From: Clostridia bacterium
Lineage (GTDB): Bacteria > Bacillota > Clostridia > Christensenellales > Christensenellaceae
Assembly (NCBI GenBank): GCA_017439085.1
Contig: JAFRTU010000010.1
Span: forward strand, 1-64,000
Length of the DNA: 64,000 nt
Reading direction: 5' to 3'
Shown here: positions 34,435 to 44,916 of the stretch, piece by piece
Layout: each line of letters starts with the position of its first letter
Numbering within the stretch: position 1 is the stretch's first letter
Program-made: the position numbers and the translations under genes
Notes under the pieces: generated by a model
What the model was told of the DNA's origin: nothing
Database searches by the model: none
Seen by the model: the letters and a program-made list of their open reading frames with translations, nothing else

Positions 34435-35958
34435 TCACAGATTCTTTTCGAGCATGTGATGGCATGCAACGAAATGATTCGGTCTGACCTCTTTCCACTC
34501 CGGAGTCACCATCTTGCACTCTTCCGTGCAGTACTGGCATCTCGTATGGAACTTGCATCCCTTCGGAGGATCGACCGGGCTCGGGATATCTCCCTCGAGG
34601 ATCTGGAGTTCTCTGTCTTGATTGACATCCGTGGTCGGTATGGCACCGAGAAGGGCTTCCGTATACGGATGCAGCGGATGATCGAACAGTTCCTGTGAAT
34701 CAGCCAGTTCCACCATGTTTCCGAGATACATGACTCCGATCCTGTCGGATATGTACTTGACGACGGAAAGATCGTGGGTGATGAACAGATATGTAAGGTT
34801 CTGACTCTCCTTGAGGTCGCTCAGAAGGTTTATGATCTGAGACTGTATGGAAACGTCAAGTGCCGAGACGGCCTCGTCACAGACTATGAAGTTCGGTCTC
34901 GTAGCAAGGCTACGAGCGATTCCTATCCTCTGTCTCTGTCCGCCGGAGAACTGGTGAGGATATCTGTGAACGAAATACGGTGCAAGTCCGCACATATCCA
35001 TAACATGGAGGATCTCATCCTGCATCCTCGGGCTGTTCTTCTTGAAGAATCCGTGTGAGAACAGTCCCTCTCCGATGATCTGTCCTACTGACATCCTCGG
35101 GTTCAGGGATGAATACGGATCCTGGAATATGAGCTGGAGGTCTCTTCTTAGTTCCCTCATCTCCTCAGTCGTCAGACGGGCAAGATCCACTCCGTTGTCG
35201 AGCATGCTTTCATATTTATCGAAATCCGCTTTGCCCTTTACTGTCTCCTTGAGAACGTCTGCAGCTTCGTGTTCCTTTTTAAGTTCTTCCTTTATTGATT
35301 CGATCTTTTTATCCGAAGAAGCTATCTTTTCCTTCTGAATCTCGATCTTTGAAGCGAATTTTCCGGGCTGTTCCTTTTCGTTGTATTCAAGATCCTGGAG
35401 CTGTACTTCGAGCTCATTCTTCTTTTTCTCGATCTTCTTCAGATCGGAAGAAAGATCGGCTATCTTCAGCAGCTGCTTCTGGACCTTCGGAAGATCATCT
35501 GACACTGCAAAACCTCCGACGACGCTCGAGACTTCGAACACCGCATCGTCAGCGTTCTTGTTTATTGTCCTGTATTCCTCGTTCTTCTTGAGCTGCTCAG
35601 CTTCAGAAAGAGCTTCATAGCTCGCATTGAACTTCTCTCTCTTTGCTTCAGCCTCATGCATCTTCTTTATGAGGCTCGGAAGCTTCCTTATGGTCTGCCT
35701 GTAATACGCAGGTGCCATCTCATCGATGTTCCTTCCGTAATACATGGTACGTCCGTCTGTCTGCTTGTATACCTGAAGGATCGTCCTTCCGAGGGTAGAT
35801 TTTCCGCATCCTGACTCGCCGACGAGTCCGAACGTCTCTCCTTCATATATGTCTATGCTGATACCGTCGTTGGCTTTTACGTATTTTCCGTGGCCAAGAG
35901 GGAACCACTGTTTCAGATCCTTGATCCTGAGCAGAACTTTCTTATTTTCTGACTGCAT
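34435..35958 (-). CDS. oppF: Oligopeptide ABC transporter ATP-binding protein with charged insert
   Basis: A 507-residue OppF-type ATPase, against about 310-330 for typical OppF. Walker A is GESGCGKS (47-54); the Q-loop is in QLIFQDPYSSLNPRM (279 on), the signature is FSGGQRQRIGIARSLA (337 on) and Walker B FIVCDEA. Residues about 80-260, between the first beta sheet and the Q-loop, are an extra Lys/Glu-rich segment that looks mostly helical and coiled-coil. The C-terminus has the Cys-rich CKFHTRC...C region common in OppD/F. It overlaps oppD by 17 nt and is last in the BCDF order. Confidence 0.93.
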   Translation of the reverse strand: MQSENKKVLLRIKDLKQWFPLGHGKYVKANDGISIDIYEGETFGLVGESGCGKSTLGRTILQVYKQTDGRTMYYGRNIDEMAPAYYRQTIRKLPSLIKKMHEAEAKREKFNASYEALSEAEQLKKNEEYRTINKNADDAVFEVSSVVGGFAVSDDLPKVQKQLLKIADLSSDLKKIEKKKNELEVQLQDLEYNEKEQPGKFASKIEIQKEKIASSDKKIESIKEELKKEHEAADVLKETVKGKADFDKYESMLDNGVDLARLTTEEMRELRRDLQLIFQDPYSSLNPRMSVGQIIGEGLFSHGFFKKNSPRMQDEILHVMDMCGLAPYFVHRYPHQFSGGQRQRIGIARSLATRPNFIVCDEAVSALDVSIQSQIINLLSDLKESQNLTYLFITHDLSVVKYISDRIGVMYLGNMVELADSQELFDHPLHPYTEALLGAIPTTDVNQDRELQILEGDIPSPVDPPKGCKFHTRCQYCTEECKMVTPEWKEVRPNHFVACHHMLEKNL

Positions 35959-36949
35959 TCTGTCTTTCCTCCTTGTTCGGATAATAGCACCTGATCTCCT
36001 GGGTATCGCTTATCTTCACCATCTCAGGCTCCTGCTCGCGGCACTTGTCCGTGGCATATTTGCATCTCGGTGCGAACTTGCACCCCTTAGGAAGATCCAG
36101 AGGATGAGGAACTGCTCCGGGTATGGCTTCGAGCCTGTGATTGGCCGGAGTGTCGAGCCTCGGTATGGAGACCATGAGGCCTTCGGTATACGGATGTGAA
36201 TACTTTGTTTCCGGATCGAACAGAACTCTTGCAGACACCTGCTCGACGACCTGACCGCAGTACATTACCGCGACATAGTCTGCCATCTGATTTATGACTC
36301 CGAGGTCATGGGTTATGAACAGTATGCTCGTCCCCTTCTCCTTCTTGAGGTCGTTCATCAGTCTTAATATCTGAGCCTGTATCGTAACGTCAAGAGCCGT
36401 CGTAGGCTCGTCTGCTATCAGCAGCTTCGGCTTGCAGGCAAGGGCCATGGCGATCATGACTCTCTGTCTCATACCGCCGGAGAGCTGATGGGGATACTGT
36501 TTTGCTACGATCTCAGGGTTCGGGATCCTGACGTCCTTCAACATCTCGAGGGAATGCTCCGCAGCCTCCTTCTTGGACATGTTCTGGTGTATCATGAAGC
36601 ACTCTGAAAGCTGTTTCTCAACTGTAAATACAGGATTCAGGCTCGTCATGGGCTCCTGGAAAATTACAGATATCTCGTTTCCGCGGATCTGATACATCTC
36701 GTTGTCCGATATCTTGGTAAGGTCCTTTCCGTCGAAAAGGATCTCACCGCTGTCTATATATCCGTTTCCATCGAGAAGGCGGAGTATGCTCATTGCGGAG
36801 ACGCTCTTTCCGGATCCTGACTCACCGACGACTCCCAATGTCTCTCCTTCCTTCACGGAATAGCTTACGTCATTTACTGCTTTCACTATTCCTCTCTTGG
36901 TAGTGAAGTATGTATGAAGATTCTTTATTGAAAGTAATTTTTCTGACAT
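35942..36949 (-). CDS. oppD: Oligopeptide ABC transporter ATP-binding protein OppD
   Basis: A 335-residue ATPase of normal length. Walker A GESGSGKS, the Q-loop IFQEPMTSLNPVFTV, signature LSGGMRQRVMIAMALA, Walker B LLIADEPTTALD and switch His in FITHDLGV are all intact. The C-terminal CKFAPRCKYATDKC segment follows. It pairs with OppF to power import of peptides. Unlike its partner it has no insert. It starts 12 nt after oppC. Confidence 0.97.
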   Translation of the reverse strand: MSEKLLSIKNLHTYFTTKRGIVKAVNDVSYSVKEGETLGVVGESGSGKSVSAMSILRLLDGNGYIDSGEILFDGKDLTKISDNEMYQIRGNEISVIFQEPMTSLNPVFTVEKQLSECFMIHQNMSKKEAAEHSLEMLKDVRIPNPEIVAKQYPHQLSGGMRQRVMIAMALACKPKLLIADEPTTALDVTIQAQILRLMNDLKKEKGTSILFITHDLGVINQMADYVAVMYCGQVVEQVSARVLFDPETKYSHPYTEGLMVSIPRLDTPANHRLEAIPGAVPHPLDLPKGCKFAPRCKYATDKCREQEPEMVKISDTQEIRCYYPNKEERQNAVRK

Positions 36950-36961
36950 GATCGCTCCTCC

Positions 36962-38812
36962 TTATCTTCCGCTGGCCTTAGGATCCAGTGCGTCTCTGAG
37001 GCCGTCACCTATCAGGTTGATGCAGATACAGGTGATCCCGAAGATGGCTCCGACGAATACCCAGTTCCACCAATAGTTCTGGATTATGACACTGTTGTTC
37101 GCTCCTGTGAGCATGTTGCCCCAGGTAGGTGTAGGGAGCGGAACTCCGAATCCGAGGTATGAGAGCGTAGACTCCGTCAGCATCGATGTTCCGAAAGCCA
37201 GTGTTATGGAAACGAGGCATACGCTCATGACATTCGGGATGACATGCTTGAATATGATCCTGCTCTCCTTGACACCGACCGTCTTTGCGGCGGTTACATA
37301 CTCCATCTCTCTCTGTGCCAGCATCTGTGCCCTGACGAGCGAGCAGAGTCCCGGCCATGAAAGGATACCGAGTATGACCATTATTATATACATCCTCTGC
37401 TCGACGGAGACCTTGGTCCCCATGACTGCAGAGAGGATCATTGCAAAAGGAATGAACGGCATGCTGGAGATGATCTCAGAGATCCTCATGATCGCCATAT
37501 CCACCCATCCTCCGAAATACCCTGCGATTCCTCCGAGAATGACGCCGATGATGGTCTCGATTATGACAGAGAGAGCACCGATCGTCATCGTCATCTTGCC
37601 ACCGTTTACGAGACGGGCAAACACGTCACGTCCAAGGCTGTCCGTTCCGCAGATGAAACCCTTTAATCCCCAGGTGTATATCTTACCGTTCTTGTCGACC
37701 GCATAGTTCTGGAAAGAGCCTGTGTAGAAATCGACTATGTCTGCATTTTTGACAGACTCAGGGACCGAGGCCTGCTCATATCTGTCATTTCCCCAGCCTA
37801 TGAGTTCTCCGTTCTCGAGTCTAGCCGTATAATGGAACCTTCCGCCCTTTATCTCCACTATCTTGGAAGATGTTTCGGGAACCAGGTTCTCGTTCTTGGT
37901 ATAAGCACCCCATACTATCACGGACCCGTCGTCCTTCAGTGCGGCAACGGTATTCGTGGTTGCTTCGATCGCAATGACTCCGGATTTTGCTTCTTCAGGT
38001 ATCTTCGTGACCGTAGATGAGGAGGTAGGCGTAGGAGCCACTACCTCGCCCTGATCCGTAAGGAGCACGAATGCTGCGCTCGTAAGAGCCATATCCTTTA
38101 TATGTCCCTGGAGATCGCTCTTTACCCAGAGCTCAACGAAGTTCTCGTTACCCCAGAGGTAGATGTTTCCTTCATCATCAAGTGCAGCACTGAACTGGTC
38201 AGATGCTTCTATCTTGATGATCTTGAACTTTGGTCTTCTGTTGTTTGACTGAATGTCAAGCGGAAGCCTGCACTGTCCGAGACGGTCATTTCCCCAGCAG
38301 AAGATCTTGCCGTCGGATGAGAGCGCTACGACGTGGTCTGCTCCTGCAGCGACCTTGACGATATCGGCTTCCATCACTTCATCAGGCACCTTTGCCGTGT
38401 TGACCACCTGTGATATCCTGGATTTTCCCCAGACATATACCTTTCCGGTATTGTCCACACCGACGGAATAGTTGTAGCCTACTGCTATGTCCCTGACACC
38501 GTTCTTCTGAAGGGCTGAGGGGTACTTCATCATGTTGTATCCCGGAGCAACGTTGACAAGTGTCGCGTCCTGCTCACCGAGATCCAGTACAACATAGTTT
38601 GGTGCTATGAAGACTGTCAGGGTTATGAGGATGACGATGATGAGAGCGAGTACTGCAAGCTTGTTGGAGAAGAAATTCCTGACAACGAGCCTGAAGGGGC
38701 TCTGAAGCTGCTCTTCGGCATATATGTCCATTTCCTTGTTAGGGAAAAATGCCCTTTTTATCCAGCGTATGAGGAAGAACTCTTTCTTTTTTGCTGTATT
38801 GTTGTTTTCCAT
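36962..38812 (-). CDS. oppC: Oligopeptide ABC transporter permease OppC with inserted seven-repeat RCC1-like propeller
   Basis: A 616-residue permease, about twice the usual 300. Residues 1-75 are the normal N-terminus and first helix. Residues 108-383 hold seven RCC1-like repeats, each G-x-x-x-x-x-L..DG-x-(V/I)-x-x-WG: YVWG (126), FCWGNDRLGQ (171), YLWG (218), a WG-less fourth repeat (VVAPTPT), VIVWG, LIGWGNDRYEQ and IYTWG. The canonical DppC/OppC sequence then resumes at GTDSLGRDVFARLVNGG (389), with five helices and the EAA loop. The propeller therefore lies outside the membrane, next to where OppA docks. The reading frame is intact. Repeat count and position are seen; role is inference. 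Confidence 0.95.
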   Translation of the reverse strand: MENNNTAKKKEFFLIRWIKRAFFPNKEMDIYAEEQLQSPFRLVVRNFFSNKLAVLALIIVILITLTVFIAPNYVVLDLGEQDATLVNVAPGYNMMKYPSALQKNGVRDIAVGYNYSVGVDNTGKVYVWGKSRISQVVNTAKVPDEVMEADIVKVAAGADHVVALSSDGKIFCWGNDRLGQCRLPLDIQSNNRRPKFKIIKIEASDQFSAALDDEGNIYLWGNENFVELWVKSDLQGHIKDMALTSAAFVLLTDQGEVVAPTPTSSSTVTKIPEEAKSGVIAIEATTNTVAALKDDGSVIVWGAYTKNENLVPETSSKIVEIKGGRFHYTARLENGELIGWGNDRYEQASVPESVKNADIVDFYTGSFQNYAVDKNGKIYTWGLKGFICGTDSLGRDVFARLVNGGKMTMTIGALSVIIETIIGVILGGIAGYFGGWVDMAIMRISEIISSMPFIPFAMILSAVMGTKVSVEQRMYIIMVILGILSWPGLCSLVRAQMLAQREMEYVTAAKTVGVKESRIIFKHVIPNVMSVCLVSITLAFGTSMLTESTLSYLGFGVPLPTPTWGNMLTGANNSVIIQNYWWNWVFVGAIFGITCICINLIGDGLRDALDPKASGR

Positions 38813-38822
38813 GTTCTCCTCC

Positions 38823-39842
38823 TTACTTGTCTATCCTGACTCTCGGGTCGATGAGCGTATAACCGATATCGGTGATGAGCACTCCGATAAGACCTACGAG
38901 GCAATAGAACATCTGCATGGCAAGGACAAGCTCATAGTCCGTAGAGTTAAGTCCAGTCCAGTAGAGACGTCCTGTACCGTTGAGGGCGAATGTGTTCTCT
39001 ATGACAAGAGATCCTCCTGTAAAGACTCCTATTATCCATCCCATTATGGAAGTGGAGACAGGCAGAAGCGCATTTCTCCATGCATGGCTGTAGATGACGA
39101 TCTTTTCCTTGAGTCCCTTGGCCCTTGCGGTCTTGATATAGTCCTGTGAGAGCGTATCGATCATGGCTGCCCTGACGGTCCTCGTCATTCCGGCAAGACC
39201 TGTGAATACGAGAACGAGTATCGGGAGACACATGTAATATAACCTGTCGAGAAGTTCCTGGATGCCGGTATATGTGGAACCGGGCGTCTTAGCTCCTCCT
39301 GTCGGGAAGAGTCTCAGGAGAACTGAGAACAGATAAATGAACACTATGCCGATCAGATATGTCGGGAGACTGTATCCCACGACCGTTCCGGCCTGTATGG
39401 CGCTGTCCACAGGCTTTCTTGCATGGACTGCGCAGAAGATGCCGAGAGGTATCGTGATCGCCAGAGTGATGATAGTCGAAATAATATTAAGAATGATAGT
39501 ATTCGCCATTGGGACCTTGATTACATCCACAACATCTCTCTTGAATGTTACGGAGTATCCGAAATTGCCCTGAAGAAGCCCTTCGTGTTTCCCTTTGACA
39601 TCCTTGATGAACCCCATCCACCTTGCATAACGGACCACAAGAGGATCATCAAGACCCAGTTGCTTTCTCAGAGCAAGGTATCTCTGCCTGAACTCTTCAG
39701 GTTTCAGGCTCTTTCTCAACGGTTCCAGCTGGACCATTGCAGGGTCGCTAGGTATGAGGTTGTAGATCGCAAACATCATGAAAGATACTATGAAGAAGAC
39801 TATCACAAGATATACCAGTCTCTTTAAAATATACTTTGCCAA
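38823..39842 (-). CDS. oppB: Oligopeptide ABC transporter permease OppB
   Basis: A 339-residue permease. The start is TTG at 39842 because GGAGG sits 7 nt before it and it gives the standard AKYILKRLVYLVIVFF N-terminus; longer in-frame readings lack a ribosome-binding site. Six helices, the EAA-like segment MIDTLSQDYIKTARAKGLKE and the C-terminal IDPRVRI are typical. The extracytoplasmic loop after helix 1 is somewhat long (QLGLDDPLVVRYARWMGFIK). It pairs with OppC. The gap to oppC is 10 nt. Confidence 0.95.
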   Translation of the reverse strand: MAKYILKRLVYLVIVFFIVSFMMFAIYNLIPSDPAMVQLEPLRKSLKPEEFRQRYLALRKQLGLDDPLVVRYARWMGFIKDVKGKHEGLLQGNFGYSVTFKRDVVDVIKVPMANTIILNIISTIITLAITIPLGIFCAVHARKPVDSAIQAGTVVGYSLPTYLIGIVFIYLFSVLLRLFPTGGAKTPGSTYTGIQELLDRLYYMCLPILVLVFTGLAGMTRTVRAAMIDTLSQDYIKTARAKGLKEKIVIYSHAWRNALLPVSTSIMGWIIGVFTGGSLVIENTFALNGTGRLYWTGLNSTDYELVLAMQMFYCLVGLIGVLITDIGYTLIDPRVRIDK

Positions 39843-40121: not shown

Positions 40122-42086
40122 TCAGCCAACATAGTCAGCATAAAGTATTGCTCTCTCATAGCCCCAGAACGGTCCTTCCTTATAGTTCTCTATTGTATTC
40201 GGATATACGGATACATAGATGTTGGAATAAAGAGGAACGAGCGGTAAAAGGTCATTGTACTTGACGATGAACTTCTGCCAATAGCTGAGGTATGTATCAT
40301 AGTCACCCTCTTCAACGCCGTAAACCATCTTCTTAGCAAGATCTTCAAGCTCTGCATCGAAGATATGAGGTGTATTGTAACCGTCAGCGATGAATGCAGG
40401 ATTGGTCGTAACTTCGAGGCTCTGGTCATAAGCTCCGCCGTTGAACCCTGTAGCGAGGTTGAACATGTTGTATGTAGGCACTGTGAAGTCTCCGCCTAAT
40501 CCATAAACGTCCTGACGATACAGGTAGTTAAGGAGTGTCGGGAAGTCCATCTGTGTCTCTCTGATCTCGATACCAACGTTCTTGATGTCGTCTCCGTTAA
40601 CGAGCATTGTAGAAAGAAGTTCTGCAACAGAGTTTCCGGAGGATGCCCACTTGATGACTGCAGGCATGAGGATCTTTCCGTTTACTTTTACAACGAGATC
40701 ATCATAGTACTTAGCTTCTTCTTCTGTAACTTCCTTATATCTGATCTGGCCTGAACCATCGACATAAGGTGTCCCGTCAGCATTGAGTGTGAATCCGATT
40801 GCCTTTAACAGCTCAACGGACTTGGAAGGATCCTTGTCATAAGTGTTGAGGTTCTCAGCGAGGAACTCTCTGCTGTCAGCATACATTGAGAATGCAGGGC
40901 AATATGGTCCATGAACTACGGAGCCCCATCCTTCGCAGAATGTCTTAGCGAATTCATTCCTGTCGAGGAGGTAAGCTACTGCCTGACGGAATTCTTTCCA
41001 CTGTGTAGGTCCGAAGTCGCATCCGAATGAGAAGTATCCGTAACCTGCTCTGTCATACTGTGTATAGCTGCCTTTGAACTTTCCAGTATCGATAAGGTCA
41101 AGAGCTGCGTTGACGAGTGCGCCGTCAGCGATTCCGGAATAGATCTCAACTCCGCCTGTTGTAAGGTTGTCGATAACGGTATCATCTTCTGTCTTGACGA
41201 TGATGATCTTCTGGATGGAAGGCATTCTTCCCTGGAAGTCTCCGTTATAGAGCGGGTTAGCTTCGAGTGTGATCTCATATGCGCTCTTGTCATAGGAAAC
41301 GAGGTTGTAAGGTCCAGCAGTGACTCTGTCGGATGTAGCGAACTGAGCCTTTGTGAACTGATCTCTTACGTTCTCAGCTGTGAATTCAGCGTCCTTGTTG
41401 TACATGTAAGCGCCGTCACCGTCGTCCTTTACTGACCAGCCTTTGCCGAACCAGTACTCAGTATTAGCTGCTTTGAATTGAGCATAGGTGATGTCATAGT
41501 AATATGGCAGATACTGGGTGGGCTCGCCGGTGAGTTCATTAAGGCTGTTTCCTTCAGGAAGGATGGTAACAGAGAACTTGTAATCGCCTAACAGACGGAT
41601 GCCTGCGAGCTTGTTGGTTGTTCCTTCTCTGTACTCTTTTCCGCCAGGAAGCATGTCCCATGCGCTTGAGGAAGCGCCGATCTCTTCTCCGACCTTGGAG
41701 TTAGCGAACAGTGTCATGATGAGGAAGTTCTCAGCTGTGATCTTCTCGCCATTGTTGAAAACGAGGCCCTTGTTGATCTCGATCGTGTAGGTCTTCTTTC
41801 CATCAGCGGCAACTTCTGCAGTGTGGCTCTTAACGACCTTGTCGTTCCAGATGTAGTCGCCATCAAAATTGGTAACGACTGTGCTGCAGTCATCGGTCAG
41901 CTGGATAACAGCCATATCCGTAGCGTTGTTGGAGCTGAGAGCATATGCCCAGTCGCCGTTAGCTTCGGTGTCTGTTCCGATAATGACCTGTCCCTTTGTC
42001 TGATTCTTCTTCTTGCATCCTGCTACTACCATGGTGACCATGATAACTGCAAGGGCTACGCAAAGAATTCTCTTGAAGTTCTTCAT
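40122..42086 (-). CDS. oppA: Oligopeptide ABC transporter substrate-binding lipoprotein OppA
   Basis: A 654-residue SBP_bac_5 lipoprotein, longer than the usual 530-560. The signal peptide ends in VVAGC (lipobox, Cys24). The family core is visible in the DGKKTYTIEINKGLVFNNGE segment, a DFGPTQWKEFRQAVAYLLDR helix and a C-terminal WQKFIVKYNDLLPLVPLYSN. It captures peptides for OppBC. It is separately transcribed, with a terminator before oppB, giving the excess of binding protein over permease usual in such systems. GAAAGGAAA precedes the ATG. Confidence 0.95.
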   Translation of the reverse strand: MKNFKRILCVALAVIMVTMVVAGCKKKNQTKGQVIIGTDTEANGDWAYALSSNNATDMAVIQLTDDCSTVVTNFDGDYIWNDKVVKSHTAEVAADGKKTYTIEINKGLVFNNGEKITAENFLIMTLFANSKVGEEIGASSSAWDMLPGGKEYREGTTNKLAGIRLLGDYKFSVTILPEGNSLNELTGEPTQYLPYYYDITYAQFKAANTEYWFGKGWSVKDDGDGAYMYNKDAEFTAENVRDQFTKAQFATSDRVTAGPYNLVSYDKSAYEITLEANPLYNGDFQGRMPSIQKIIIVKTEDDTVIDNLTTGGVEIYSGIADGALVNAALDLIDTGKFKGSYTQYDRAGYGYFSFGCDFGPTQWKEFRQAVAYLLDRNEFAKTFCEGWGSVVHGPYCPAFSMYADSREFLAENLNTYDKDPSKSVELLKAIGFTLNADGTPYVDGSGQIRYKEVTEEEAKYYDDLVVKVNGKILMPAVIKWASSGNSVAELLSTMLVNGDDIKNVGIEIRETQMDFPTLLNYLYRQDVYGLGGDFTVPTYNMFNLATGFNGGAYDQSLEVTTNPAFIADGYNTPHIFDAELEDLAKKMVYGVEEGDYDTYLSYWQKFIVKYNDLLPLVPLYSNIYVSVYPNTIENYKEGPFWGYERAILYADYVG

Positions 42087-42574: not shown

Positions 42575-43111
42575 TTATCTCACTGCTTCCGCACCAGCTT
42601 CAAGAGCTCTCTCGTTTATAGGGATGAGATTTGCCTTTCTCTCTCCGAATGAGGCCCTGAGACAGTCGATCGCAGTCACTGGAGAAACCACATGGGTCTT
42701 TTCAAGTACGGCTCCGAGCATGACCATGTTTGCGACCCTGCCGTTTCCGAGATCATCTGCCAGTTTGTTGACCGGTACATAGTATACCTCTATGTCATCT
42801 CTTGTGCTCTTGAGATCTATGAGCGAACTGTTGACGAAGAGCTTTCCGCCCTTTGCAACGTTCTTTTCGTATTTCTCGAAGGATGGTCTGTTCATGACTA
42901 CGACTATGTCCGCCTGAGTTACCACCGGGCTTCCGACTTCCTCATCAGATACCACGACGCTGCAGTTTGCAGTTCCGCCTCTCATCTCCGGTCCGTATGA
43001 AGGGAGCCATGAAACGTCATAGCCTTCCTTTAATCCCGCATAGGCGATAAGCTGTCCGAGAAGAAGGACGCCCTGTCCGCCGAATCCTGCACTTATGATC
43101 TGAGTCAGCAT
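42575..43111 (-). CDS. 2-oxoacid:ferredoxin oxidoreductase gamma subunit
   Basis: A 178-residue gamma subunit (POR/KOR gamma family). It starts TQIISAGFGGQGVLLLGQLI, with SYGPEMRGGTANC as the second family mark. It works with the alpha, beta and ferredoxin-like subunits encoded directly upstream to oxidise a 2-oxoacid to its acyl-CoA with reduction of ferredoxin. It starts 1 nt after the beta-subunit stop and is last in the operon. Confidence 0.95.
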   Translation of the reverse strand: MLTQIISAGFGGQGVLLLGQLIAYAGLKEGYDVSWLPSYGPEMRGGTANCSVVVSDEEVGSPVVTQADIVVVMNRPSFEKYEKNVAKGGKLFVNSSLIDLKSTRDDIEVYYVPVNKLADDLGNGRVANMVMLGAVLEKTHVVSPVTAIDCLRASFGERKANLIPINERALEAGAEAVR

Positions 43112-43112
43112 G

Positions 43113-43850
43113 TCATACCTCCTCCTTTACGACACCAAGAGGATAATAAGGTATCATGTTCTCTTTCAGCCACTTCAGAGCTTCGACAGGAGTCTTGCCC
43201 CAGTTTGTAGGGCATGTGGAGAGGACTTCTATGAAAGTGAATCCCTTCCCCTCCATCTGATACTTCATTGCCTTCTTGATGGCGTTCTTTGCCTTTATGA
43301 TGTTCGGCACGTCATGGAGGGATACTCTCTCCACATAGCATGCTCCGTCAAGGGTGGCTATGAGCTCGCTCATCCTTATCGGAAGCCCGCAGTGCTCTCT
43401 CTTCCTTCCGTATGGGGAAGTCGTAGTGACCTGTCCTTCAAGGGAAGTAGGAGCCATCTGGCCGCCTGTCATTCCGTAAATGGCATTGTTGATGAAGATC
43501 GTAGTGACCTTTTCGCCTCTGGCAGCCGCATGGACTATCTCCGCGGTACCTATTGAAGCAAGGTCTCCGTCTCCCTGATAGCTGAATACCAGCTTGTCGG
43601 GATGTACTCTCTTTATTCCCGTGGCAACGGCTGGAGCTCTTCCGTGAGCGGCCTCCATCATGTCACAGTTGAAATAGTTATATGCGAATACGGCGCATCC
43701 GACAGGAGCGATGCCGATCGCCTTGTCCTGCATTCCGAGTTCCTCAACCGCTTCGGCCACCAGTCTGTGTGCTATACCATGGGTACAGCCCGGGCAGTAA
43801 TGGAAAGGAACGTCCGTAAGCATCTTTGTTTTTTCAAATACTACTGCCAT
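43113..43850 (-). CDS. 2-oxoacid:ferredoxin oxidoreductase beta subunit (TPP-binding)
   Basis: A 245-residue beta subunit. The TPP/Mg motif is GDGDLASIGTAEIVHAAARG followed by NNAIYGMTGGQMAPTS, and YCPGCTHG at the N-terminus is a family element. The MTGGQ.APT variant is characteristic of Vor/Kor (branched-chain or 2-oxoglutarate) enzymes rather than pyruvate ones. The alpha-subunit gene ends 1 nt upstream. Confidence 0.95.
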   Translation of the reverse strand: MAVVFEKTKMLTDVPFHYCPGCTHGIAHRLVAEAVEELGMQDKAIGIAPVGCAVFAYNYFNCDMMEAAHGRAPAVATGIKRVHPDKLVFSYQGDGDLASIGTAEIVHAAARGEKVTTIFINNAIYGMTGGQMAPTSLEGQVTTTSPYGRKREHCGLPIRMSELIATLDGACYVERVSLHDVPNIIKAKNAIKKAMKYQMEGKGFTFIEVLSTCPTNWGKTPVEALKWLKENMIPYYPLGVVKEEV

Positions 43851-43851
43851 C

Positions 43852-44916
43852 TTATTCGTGAGCCTCCTTCAATTTGATGATCTGTTCAAGGATGTCTTCC
43901 GTGCTCGGTACGAATCCTCCGAGGGTCCCGAAGAACTCCACGGGCTTCTTACCGTTTACTGCAAGTCTGACGTCCTCCACCATCTGGCCTGTGCTCATCT
44001 CTATAGTGATGAAAGCCTTTGCCGTATCTGCAGCTTTGCTGAAAGCCTCATCCGGGAACGGCCATACTGTCTTTGGTCTTATGAGTCCGACCTTTATTCC
44101 CATCTGTCTTGCCTTGTTTATGGCGCTCTTGGCTATCCTTGCGGTCGTGCCGTATGCTGCGATGATATAATCTGCATCCTCAGTGTTGTAGAGTTCGACC
44201 TGGGTCTCCCTCTCCTTTATGAGGGCATATCTCTTCAAAAGCCTCTCGGAAACGACCTTCATCTGCTCAGGCTCGATATACAGGGAGTTTATGACTGCTC
44301 TTTCTCTTGTCTTATCGTCCCAGCCTGTAGCTGCCCATGTCTTCGGAGGGAGCTCTCTCTTCTTGTAATCTGCAAACTCGACCGGTTCCATGATCTGGCC
44401 GATCATTCCGTCTCCTAAGAGCATGACGGGGATCCTGTATGTGTCGGCTATGTCAAAGCCTTCCATTACCATGTTTGCTGCTTCCTGGACCGTTGAAGGA
44501 GCAAGTACCACCAGGTGATAATCTCCGTGTCCGCCGCCTTTGGTAGCCTGGAAATAATCTCCCTGTGCCGGCTGTATGCCGCCAAGTCCCGGTCCTACTC
44601 TCATCATGTTGCATATGAGACAGGGGATCTCTGCACATGCTATATAGCTGATGCCTTCCTGCTTGAGGCTTATTCCTGGGCTTGATGACGAAGTCATTAC
44701 CCTGGCTCCGGATCCGCCTGCACCGTAAACCATATTGATGGCAGCGACCTCGCTCTCAGCCTGGAGGAACACTCCTCCCTCCTGAGGAAGTCTTCTGCTC
44801 ATATATTCCGGAATCTCATTCTGTGGAGTTATAGGATATCCGAAGAAGAATCTGCATCCGGCCTGTATAGCGGCCTCTCCTATAGCTTCGCTGCCTTTCA
44901 TTAATTTCTTAGCCAT
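43852..44916 (-). CDS. vorB: 2-oxoacid:ferredoxin oxidoreductase alpha subunit (Vor/Kor type)
   Basis: A 354-residue alpha subunit resembling proteins named VorB (3-methyl-2-oxobutanoate type). Family marks are CRFFFGYPITPQNEIPEYM, ESEVAAINMVYGAGGSGAR and TSSSSPGISLKQEG, with a C-terminal domain II containing IGLIRPKTVWPFPDEAF-like sequence. Substrate (branched-chain 2-oxoacid or 2-oxoglutarate) cannot be fixed from sequence alone. It lies 18 nt after the ferredoxin-like subunit. Confidence 0.92.
   Translation of the reverse strand: MAKKLMKGSEAIGEAAIQAGCRFFFGYPITPQNEIPEYMSRRLPQEGGVFLQAESEVAAINMVYGAGGSGARVMTSSSSPGISLKQEGISYIACAEIPCLICNMMRVGPGLGGIQPAQGDYFQATKGGGHGDYHLVVLAPSTVQEAANMVMEGFDIADTYRIPVMLLGDGMIGQIMEPVEFADYKKRELPPKTWAATGWDDKTRERAVINSLYIEPEQMKVVSERLLKRYALIKERETQVELYNTEDADYIIAAYGTTARIAKSAINKARQMGIKVGLIRPKTVWPFPDEAFSKAADTAKAFITIEMSTGQMVEDVRLAVNGKKPVEFFGTLGGFVPSTEDILEQIIKLKEAHE

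Follow-up and report, generated by a model that had tools for sequence, protein, structure and literature searches.

Opp importers, through which peptide-using bacteria feed, are textbook transporters. The closest described systems are the Dpp/Opp type I importers (E. coli DppABCDF and OppBCDF, M. tuberculosis OppABCD/DppABCD), with which the locus described here has the permease core and the five genes in common. In this family, the EAA coupling loop lies between TM4 and TM5 on the cytosolic side, and in E. coli Dpp the outer scoop that touches DppA belongs to DppB, while DppC contacts DppF and DppB contacts DppD (PMC12136057). E. coli DppC is devoid of an additional domain of the kind reported here, whereas the OppC of our locus carries a propeller of ~277 residues and its OppF a helical insert of ~155 residues. 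A domain in an outer loop of a permease subunit is found in the maltose importer, where MalF P2 contacts MalE during transport (PMC3150292). We use MalF P2 as a functional comparison only, for a possibly similar way of working, and claim no homology to the OppC propeller. It sits in a different loop and has a different fold.

The best match to the propeller among solved structures is BLIP-II (PDB 1jtd, 3qi0), which is described as a propeller of seven blades with three strands each (PMC6121496). The likeness extends to the seven three-stranded RCC1-type blades and to the loops, since the loops with which BLIP-II contacts its partner are those conserved here. However, BLIP-II is a free secreted inhibitor, whereas the OppC propeller is embedded between TM1 and TM2 and is thus not a secreted free-standing protein. 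RCC1, UVR8 and the RCC1-like domains of HERC proteins share the repeat family with it. These are eukaryotic and, as far as is known, functionally unrelated.

The window (the whole analysed stretch of 64,000 nucleotides from a Clostridia bacterium) contains a compact oppA-B-C-D-F operon with oppC in third place:

40122..42086 (-): oppA, substrate-binding protein of 654 aa with a lipobox-like VAGC read from the sequence (Pfam, sequence)
38823..39842 (-): oppB, about 339 aa from an internal TTG; the open frame reaches 39935 (Pfam, NCBIfam)
36962..38812 (-): oppC, the propeller-bearing permease subunit of 616 aa (ORF, Pfam)
35942..36949 (-): oppD, ATPase of 335 aa without insert (Pfam, NCBIfam)
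34435..35958 (-): oppF, ATPase of 507 aa (Pfam, NCBIfam, AlphaFold2)

Gaps of 10 and 12 bases separate oppB from oppC and oppC from oppD, oppD and oppF overlap shortly, and the ATG of oppC is closely preceded by the ribosome-binding site AGGAGGAG. The gene order is conserved between the window and the 80 named loci described below. The adjoining genes at 42575-44916 resemble, by reading alone, subunits of a 2-oxoacid:ferredoxin oxidoreductase, which would fit amino-acid fermentation.

The OppC protein was subjected to Pfam, NCBIfam and phmmer searches. OppC_N was found at residues 38-73 (E 3.7e-9, 36.8 bits, cut-off 23.9) and BPD_transp_1 at 423-613 (E 8.7e-34, 117.3 bits, cut-off 26.4). With both domains above their cut-offs, and with OppA, OppB, OppD and OppF encoded in the same operon, the protein is a member of the OppC/DppC family. 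Opp4C was the top-scoring Opp model, but its 297.5 bits remain below the curated equivalog cut-off of 350; this OppC is thus related to Opp4C without being a named member of it. A phmmer search against solved structures aligned residues 385-612 with E. coli OppC (8z21_B, E 6.6e-48), and the insert with chains of BLIP-II, RCC1, UVR8 and HERC. In the insert, RCC1_2 gave six significant stretches (E 1.3e-37, 127 bits, cut-off 22) and RCC1 (PF00415) an E of 1e-8, so that the RCC1-type match is far above chance; the whole-domain model PF25390 (WD40_RLD) fell slightly short, with 136 against a cut-off of 150. The elements of OppC are as follows:

38597..38662 (-): TM1, residues 51-72, inside to outside (OppC_N Pfam match; helix in the AlphaFold2 model)
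38498..38596 (-): entry linker, residues 73-105, whose start DLGEQDATLVNVAPGY corresponds, in a comparison by eye, to DQQDYTAINQGPS in the loop of the ordinary OppC of locus L167
37667..38497 (-): predicted seven-bladed propeller of the RCC1/BLIP-II type, residues 106-382 (Pfam, phmmer, AlphaFold2, Foldseek)
38426..38497 (-): blade 1, residues 106-129 (AlphaFold2)
38291..38362 (-): blade 2, residues 151-174; D159 and Q180 invariant, H160 and R177 near-invariant (AlphaFold2, conservation)
38150..38221 (-): blade 3, residues 198-221; Q206 and N222 invariant (AlphaFold2, conservation)
38033..38101 (-): blade 4, residues 238-260, without WG ending (AlphaFold2, sequence)
37907..37978 (-): blade 5, residues 279-302, shortly followed by the nearly invariant E308 (AlphaFold2, conservation)
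37790..37861 (-): blade 6, residues 318-341, with R325 and H327 (AlphaFold2, conservation)
37667..37738 (-): blade 7, residues 359-382, with Q368-N369-Y370 (AlphaFold2, alignment, conservation)
37625..37648 (-): GTDSLGRD, residues 389-396, the standard OppC segment ahead of TM2 (sequence comparison)
36965..37624 (-): permease core, residues 397-616, including the EAA-type coupling loop near 504-528 (BPD_transp_1; Opp4C best match)

A preliminary description of this DNA had proposed seven successive RCC1-type repeats at 37661-38491 (OppC residues 108-384), inserted between the first helix and GTDSLGRD, mostly ending in WG, facing outward and sufficient to close one propeller. The repeats are found at the seven blade positions listed above, six of the seven end in WG (the fourth being the exception), and the RCC1 profile search described above agrees with the assignment. 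OppC_N precedes the insert, GTDSLGRD and BPD_transp_1 follow it. The propeller is thus placed in the TM1-TM2 loop, after TM1, with the GTDxxGRD motif and the permease core retained. By eye, the flanks of a normal loop are kept on both sides, DQQDYTAINQGPS and AQHWFGTDSLGRD in L167 corresponding to GEQDATLVNVAPGY and LKGFICGTDSLGRD here. Because the EAA loop between TM4 and TM5 is cytosolic (PMC12136057), the family topology puts the TM1-TM2 loop outside, as the preliminary description had it.

The predicted fold agrees with closure as well. An AlphaFold2 model of OppC alone, computed from an alignment of 78 homologues, has seven blades of three strands each, with pLDDT mostly 90-97 in the propeller and dips to about 82-84 (whole chain: pLDDT 84.6, pTM 0.75). 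Blade 4 covers 238-252 in this model, with a weak third strand at about 257-258. When the model was submitted to Foldseek, BLIP-II came first (TMt 0.81, E 1.6e-21, 28-29% identity) and UVR8 next; the ectodomain of the plant receptor kinase ACR4 was also matched by the propeller, and the permease part matched E. coli DppC/OppC (TMt 0.70). The model thus shows a closed, BLIP-II-like seven-bladed propeller in the first outer loop of OppC. A recent duplication of blades can be ruled out, the blades being on average only 29% alike.

To determine how widespread the fusion is, the full OppC protein was used as query against 396 sampled genomes of the same order, with matches accepted at an E of 1e-70 or better. 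A propeller OppC was present in 33 of these genomes, from nine families. Most of the propeller is spanned by 31 of the 33 matches; the remaining two start inside it (residue 278-279) and lie in open frames of 673 and 711 aa. In a phylum sample of 398 genomes, 13 genomes besides the window's own contained a propeller OppC, and a scan of named genomes yielded 80 propeller loci, with record labels of Oscillospiraceae, Lachnospiraceae, Christensenella, Erysipelotrichaceae, Tissierellia and others. The named carriers, cultured isolates among them, include Hungatella effluvii DSM 24995, Falcatimonas sp. MSJ-15, Clostridium sp. KNHs205 and Clostridium sp. Cult3. The nearest named relatives of this OppC are found in Clostridia MAGs, several labelled as ruminant gut samples. 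The preliminary description had allowed for an assembly or cloning artefact; the same fusion in relatives from the order survey (33/396), the 13 genomes of the phylum sample and the 80 named loci, isolates included, refutes this, and the probability left for an artefact or a functionless passenger is negligible.

In a FastTree phylogeny of the permease segment only, 107 propeller OppCs were separated from 22 others by one branch with a support of 99. This quick tree is unrooted and the 22 others are no representative sample of OppCs as a whole; the grouping is compatible with one insertion event. Only one of six sampled relatives in the window's own genus has the propeller, which means that it is also lost or transferred.

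Purifying selection acts on the propeller. Over 56 near-relative, non-independent pairs, the propeller had a median dN/dS of 0.25 and a maximum of 0.49, against a median of 0.09 in the permease. Together with the conserved operon, this rules out a functionless passenger, for which no point in favour was found. Conservation is unevenly distributed: loops on the A-B/post-C side have a mean of 0.605 versus 0.469 on the B-C side (Mann-Whitney p 0.0007, residues treated as independent and glycines excluded), with the faces assigned from strand order and topology rather than coordinates. D159, Q180, Q206, N222 and H327 are invariant in 78 of 78 sequences and, with H160, R177, E308, R325, Q368 and N369, make up a conserved polar patch on one face. 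The BLIP-II residues that contact beta-lactamases are listed in PMC10817188; placed by hand, they fall into the A-B/post-C loops wherever the printed BLIP-II sequence covers them. Blade 7 exits only six residues before GTDSLGRD, and this junction is strongly conserved (mean 0.71). Among the OppCs of L062, L064 and L059, close relatives differ far more in the propeller than in the permease, also at synonymous sites (L062/L064: 0.74 in the propeller, 0.20 in the permease). Such raised synonymous divergence hints at recombination within oppC.

A second insert, an accompaniment of the propeller that the preliminary description does not mention, was found in OppF:

35245..35709 (-): helical-hairpin insert of OppF, residues 84-238, between Walker A and Q-loop (AlphaFold2)

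These about 155 extra residues are predicted to form a short helix (84-91) followed by helices 93-115, 126-152, 156-196 and 202-238, with pLDDT mostly 90-98 and a dip to 82 near residues 121-130 (whole OppF: mean pLDDT 90.5). With Foldseek, OppF matched chain D of 8z21/8z1v (TMt 0.90) and, more weakly, chain C. Of the 73 scorable named propeller operons, 71 have a distance of 187-247 residues from Walker A to Q-loop; in all 20 operons with a propeller-free OppC, where the insert is absent, it is 41-46. Among 20 more propeller operons, picked to cover deeper branches, the OppF distance was 138-235 in every case, and 47 in nearly all of their OppDs. The helical insert of OppF thus nearly always accompanies the OppC propeller in the same operon. 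In the two remaining named operons (L134 and L135, Tissierellia records), the distance is 49; a propeller OppC can hence occur with an OppF of ordinary length, and the two features are separable. The insert is very fast-evolving, with the highest mean distance of all segments. Since DppC contacts DppF in E. coli (PMC12136057), propeller and OppF insert are, by analogy, probably located on the same half of the importer. The arrangement of propeller and OppF arm is found in many gut and anaerobic bacteria of many Bacillota families.

In a mirror-tree analysis, propeller distances correlated with those of OppA (partial rank r 0.43, bootstrap 0.25-0.55, other subunits controlled), while the partial correlation with the protein's own permease core was near zero (-0.04, and 0.08 in the equal-column control). 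In this control, for which the columns were matched in number and in rate of evolution, the value was 0.37 for both OppA and the nucleotide-binding domain of OppF, and 0.24 for OppB; with close pairs only, OppB reached 0.29 and OppA 0.24. Because the cytosolic OppF is unable to touch the outside and yet equals OppA in the control, co-variation cannot identify a contact or partner, and the signal between propeller and OppA is suggestive and non-specific.

As possible functions, the preliminary description had named docking of OppA, a second ligand- or partner-binding module and a contact with the cell wall. As the conserved face is the one that BLIP-II uses for its partner, the evidence leans towards docking of an external protein. 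The propeller would lie outside the membrane beside the entrance of the importer, and the A-B/post-C loops, the side with which BLIP-II grips beta-lactamase, may form the docking surface. The likeliest partner would be OppA; with its lipobox-like motif it would be anchored in the membrane beside the propeller and could be kept close to the entrance so as to deliver repeatedly, much as MalF P2 acts on MalE. On the cytosolic side, and probably on the same half of the complex, the OppF hairpin may be a second docking or regulatory arm. Since co-variation does not name the partner, we infer docking of an external protein, likeliest OppA, with a probability of about 0.45 only, beside the alternatives of a receptor, a conformational element and a shield. 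The conserved pocket of the propeller could equally accept a peptide or a glycan as ligand.

The polar patch on one face would also suit a separate receptor that binds something other than OppA, such as peptides, peptidoglycan or a surface protease, and concentrates substrate at the importer. The Foldseek match to the ACR4 ectodomain points in this direction, and propellers are described as common binding scaffolds (PMC3797127). However, the sequence permits no inference of a ligand family and Pfam reports no wall-binding domain in OppC, and we regard a separate receptor as rather unlikely. The tight and conserved junction to GTDSLGRD (six residues, mean 0.71) and the positive co-variation with OppB (0.24) could instead mean that the conserved face packs on OppB or on the OppC core, where the propeller would stabilize or time the outward-facing state with no external binding; that the propeller shows next to no partial correlation with the permease core of its own protein (-0.04, 0.08) argues against such packing, which we judge improbable.

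Faster evolution than the permease (dN/dS 0.25 vs 0.09) and the hint of recombination from close pairs such as L062/L064 (0.74 vs 0.20) would suit a cap or shield on the cell surface, with phages, bacteriocins or immune pressure and not transport shaping its sequence. Still, dN/dS is below 0.5 in every scored pair, residues invariant in 78 sequences lie on one face, and OppA evolves similarly fast; a shield thus seems distinctly improbable. A wider scheme, which we regard as speculative and distinctly improbable as a whole, would be an importer regulated from two sides. In it, the outer propeller senses or captures substrate, wall or protein, the OppF arm couples the same half to a partner within the cell, and both sides together gate uptake. 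If true, a peptide importer would double as a sensor.

No paper linking RCC1 to OppC, or to an ABC permease and a propeller, was found in the literature searched, outside of which most subscription journals lie. The propeller-bearing oppABCDF operon is thus apparently a conserved subtype of oligopeptide ABC importer that is undescribed in this literature. With it, the ways in which a permease subunit could deal with its binding protein or substrate can be tested on a concrete example, and the cultured carriers could be used for experiments.

Stretches of 300-600 residues ahead of the GTD motif also occur in further OppC paralogues from this order (e.g. L161-L165), and no RCC1 or other significant Pfam domain was detected in the loops of the five that were scanned. 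In operons of this type, OppF is without the helical insert. Counting the N-terminus, the OppCs of L148-L165 have about 107 to 623 residues ahead of the motif, often with repeated FxxDGxxYxV-like units. Judging from these sequences, the first outer loop of OppC seems prone to take up inserted domains. In sister operons, long OppBs (490-581 aa in L151, L153, L158 and L159) and, in L158, an OppD with an open frame of 723 aa suggest further unrecognized extensions. Finally, one genome (G000, contig C13) encodes a second RCC1-repeat protein of 809 aa (L173, 5251-7680, (-)), with a zinc-ribbon-like start, apparent transmembrane segments and RCC1-type repeats at the C-terminus.
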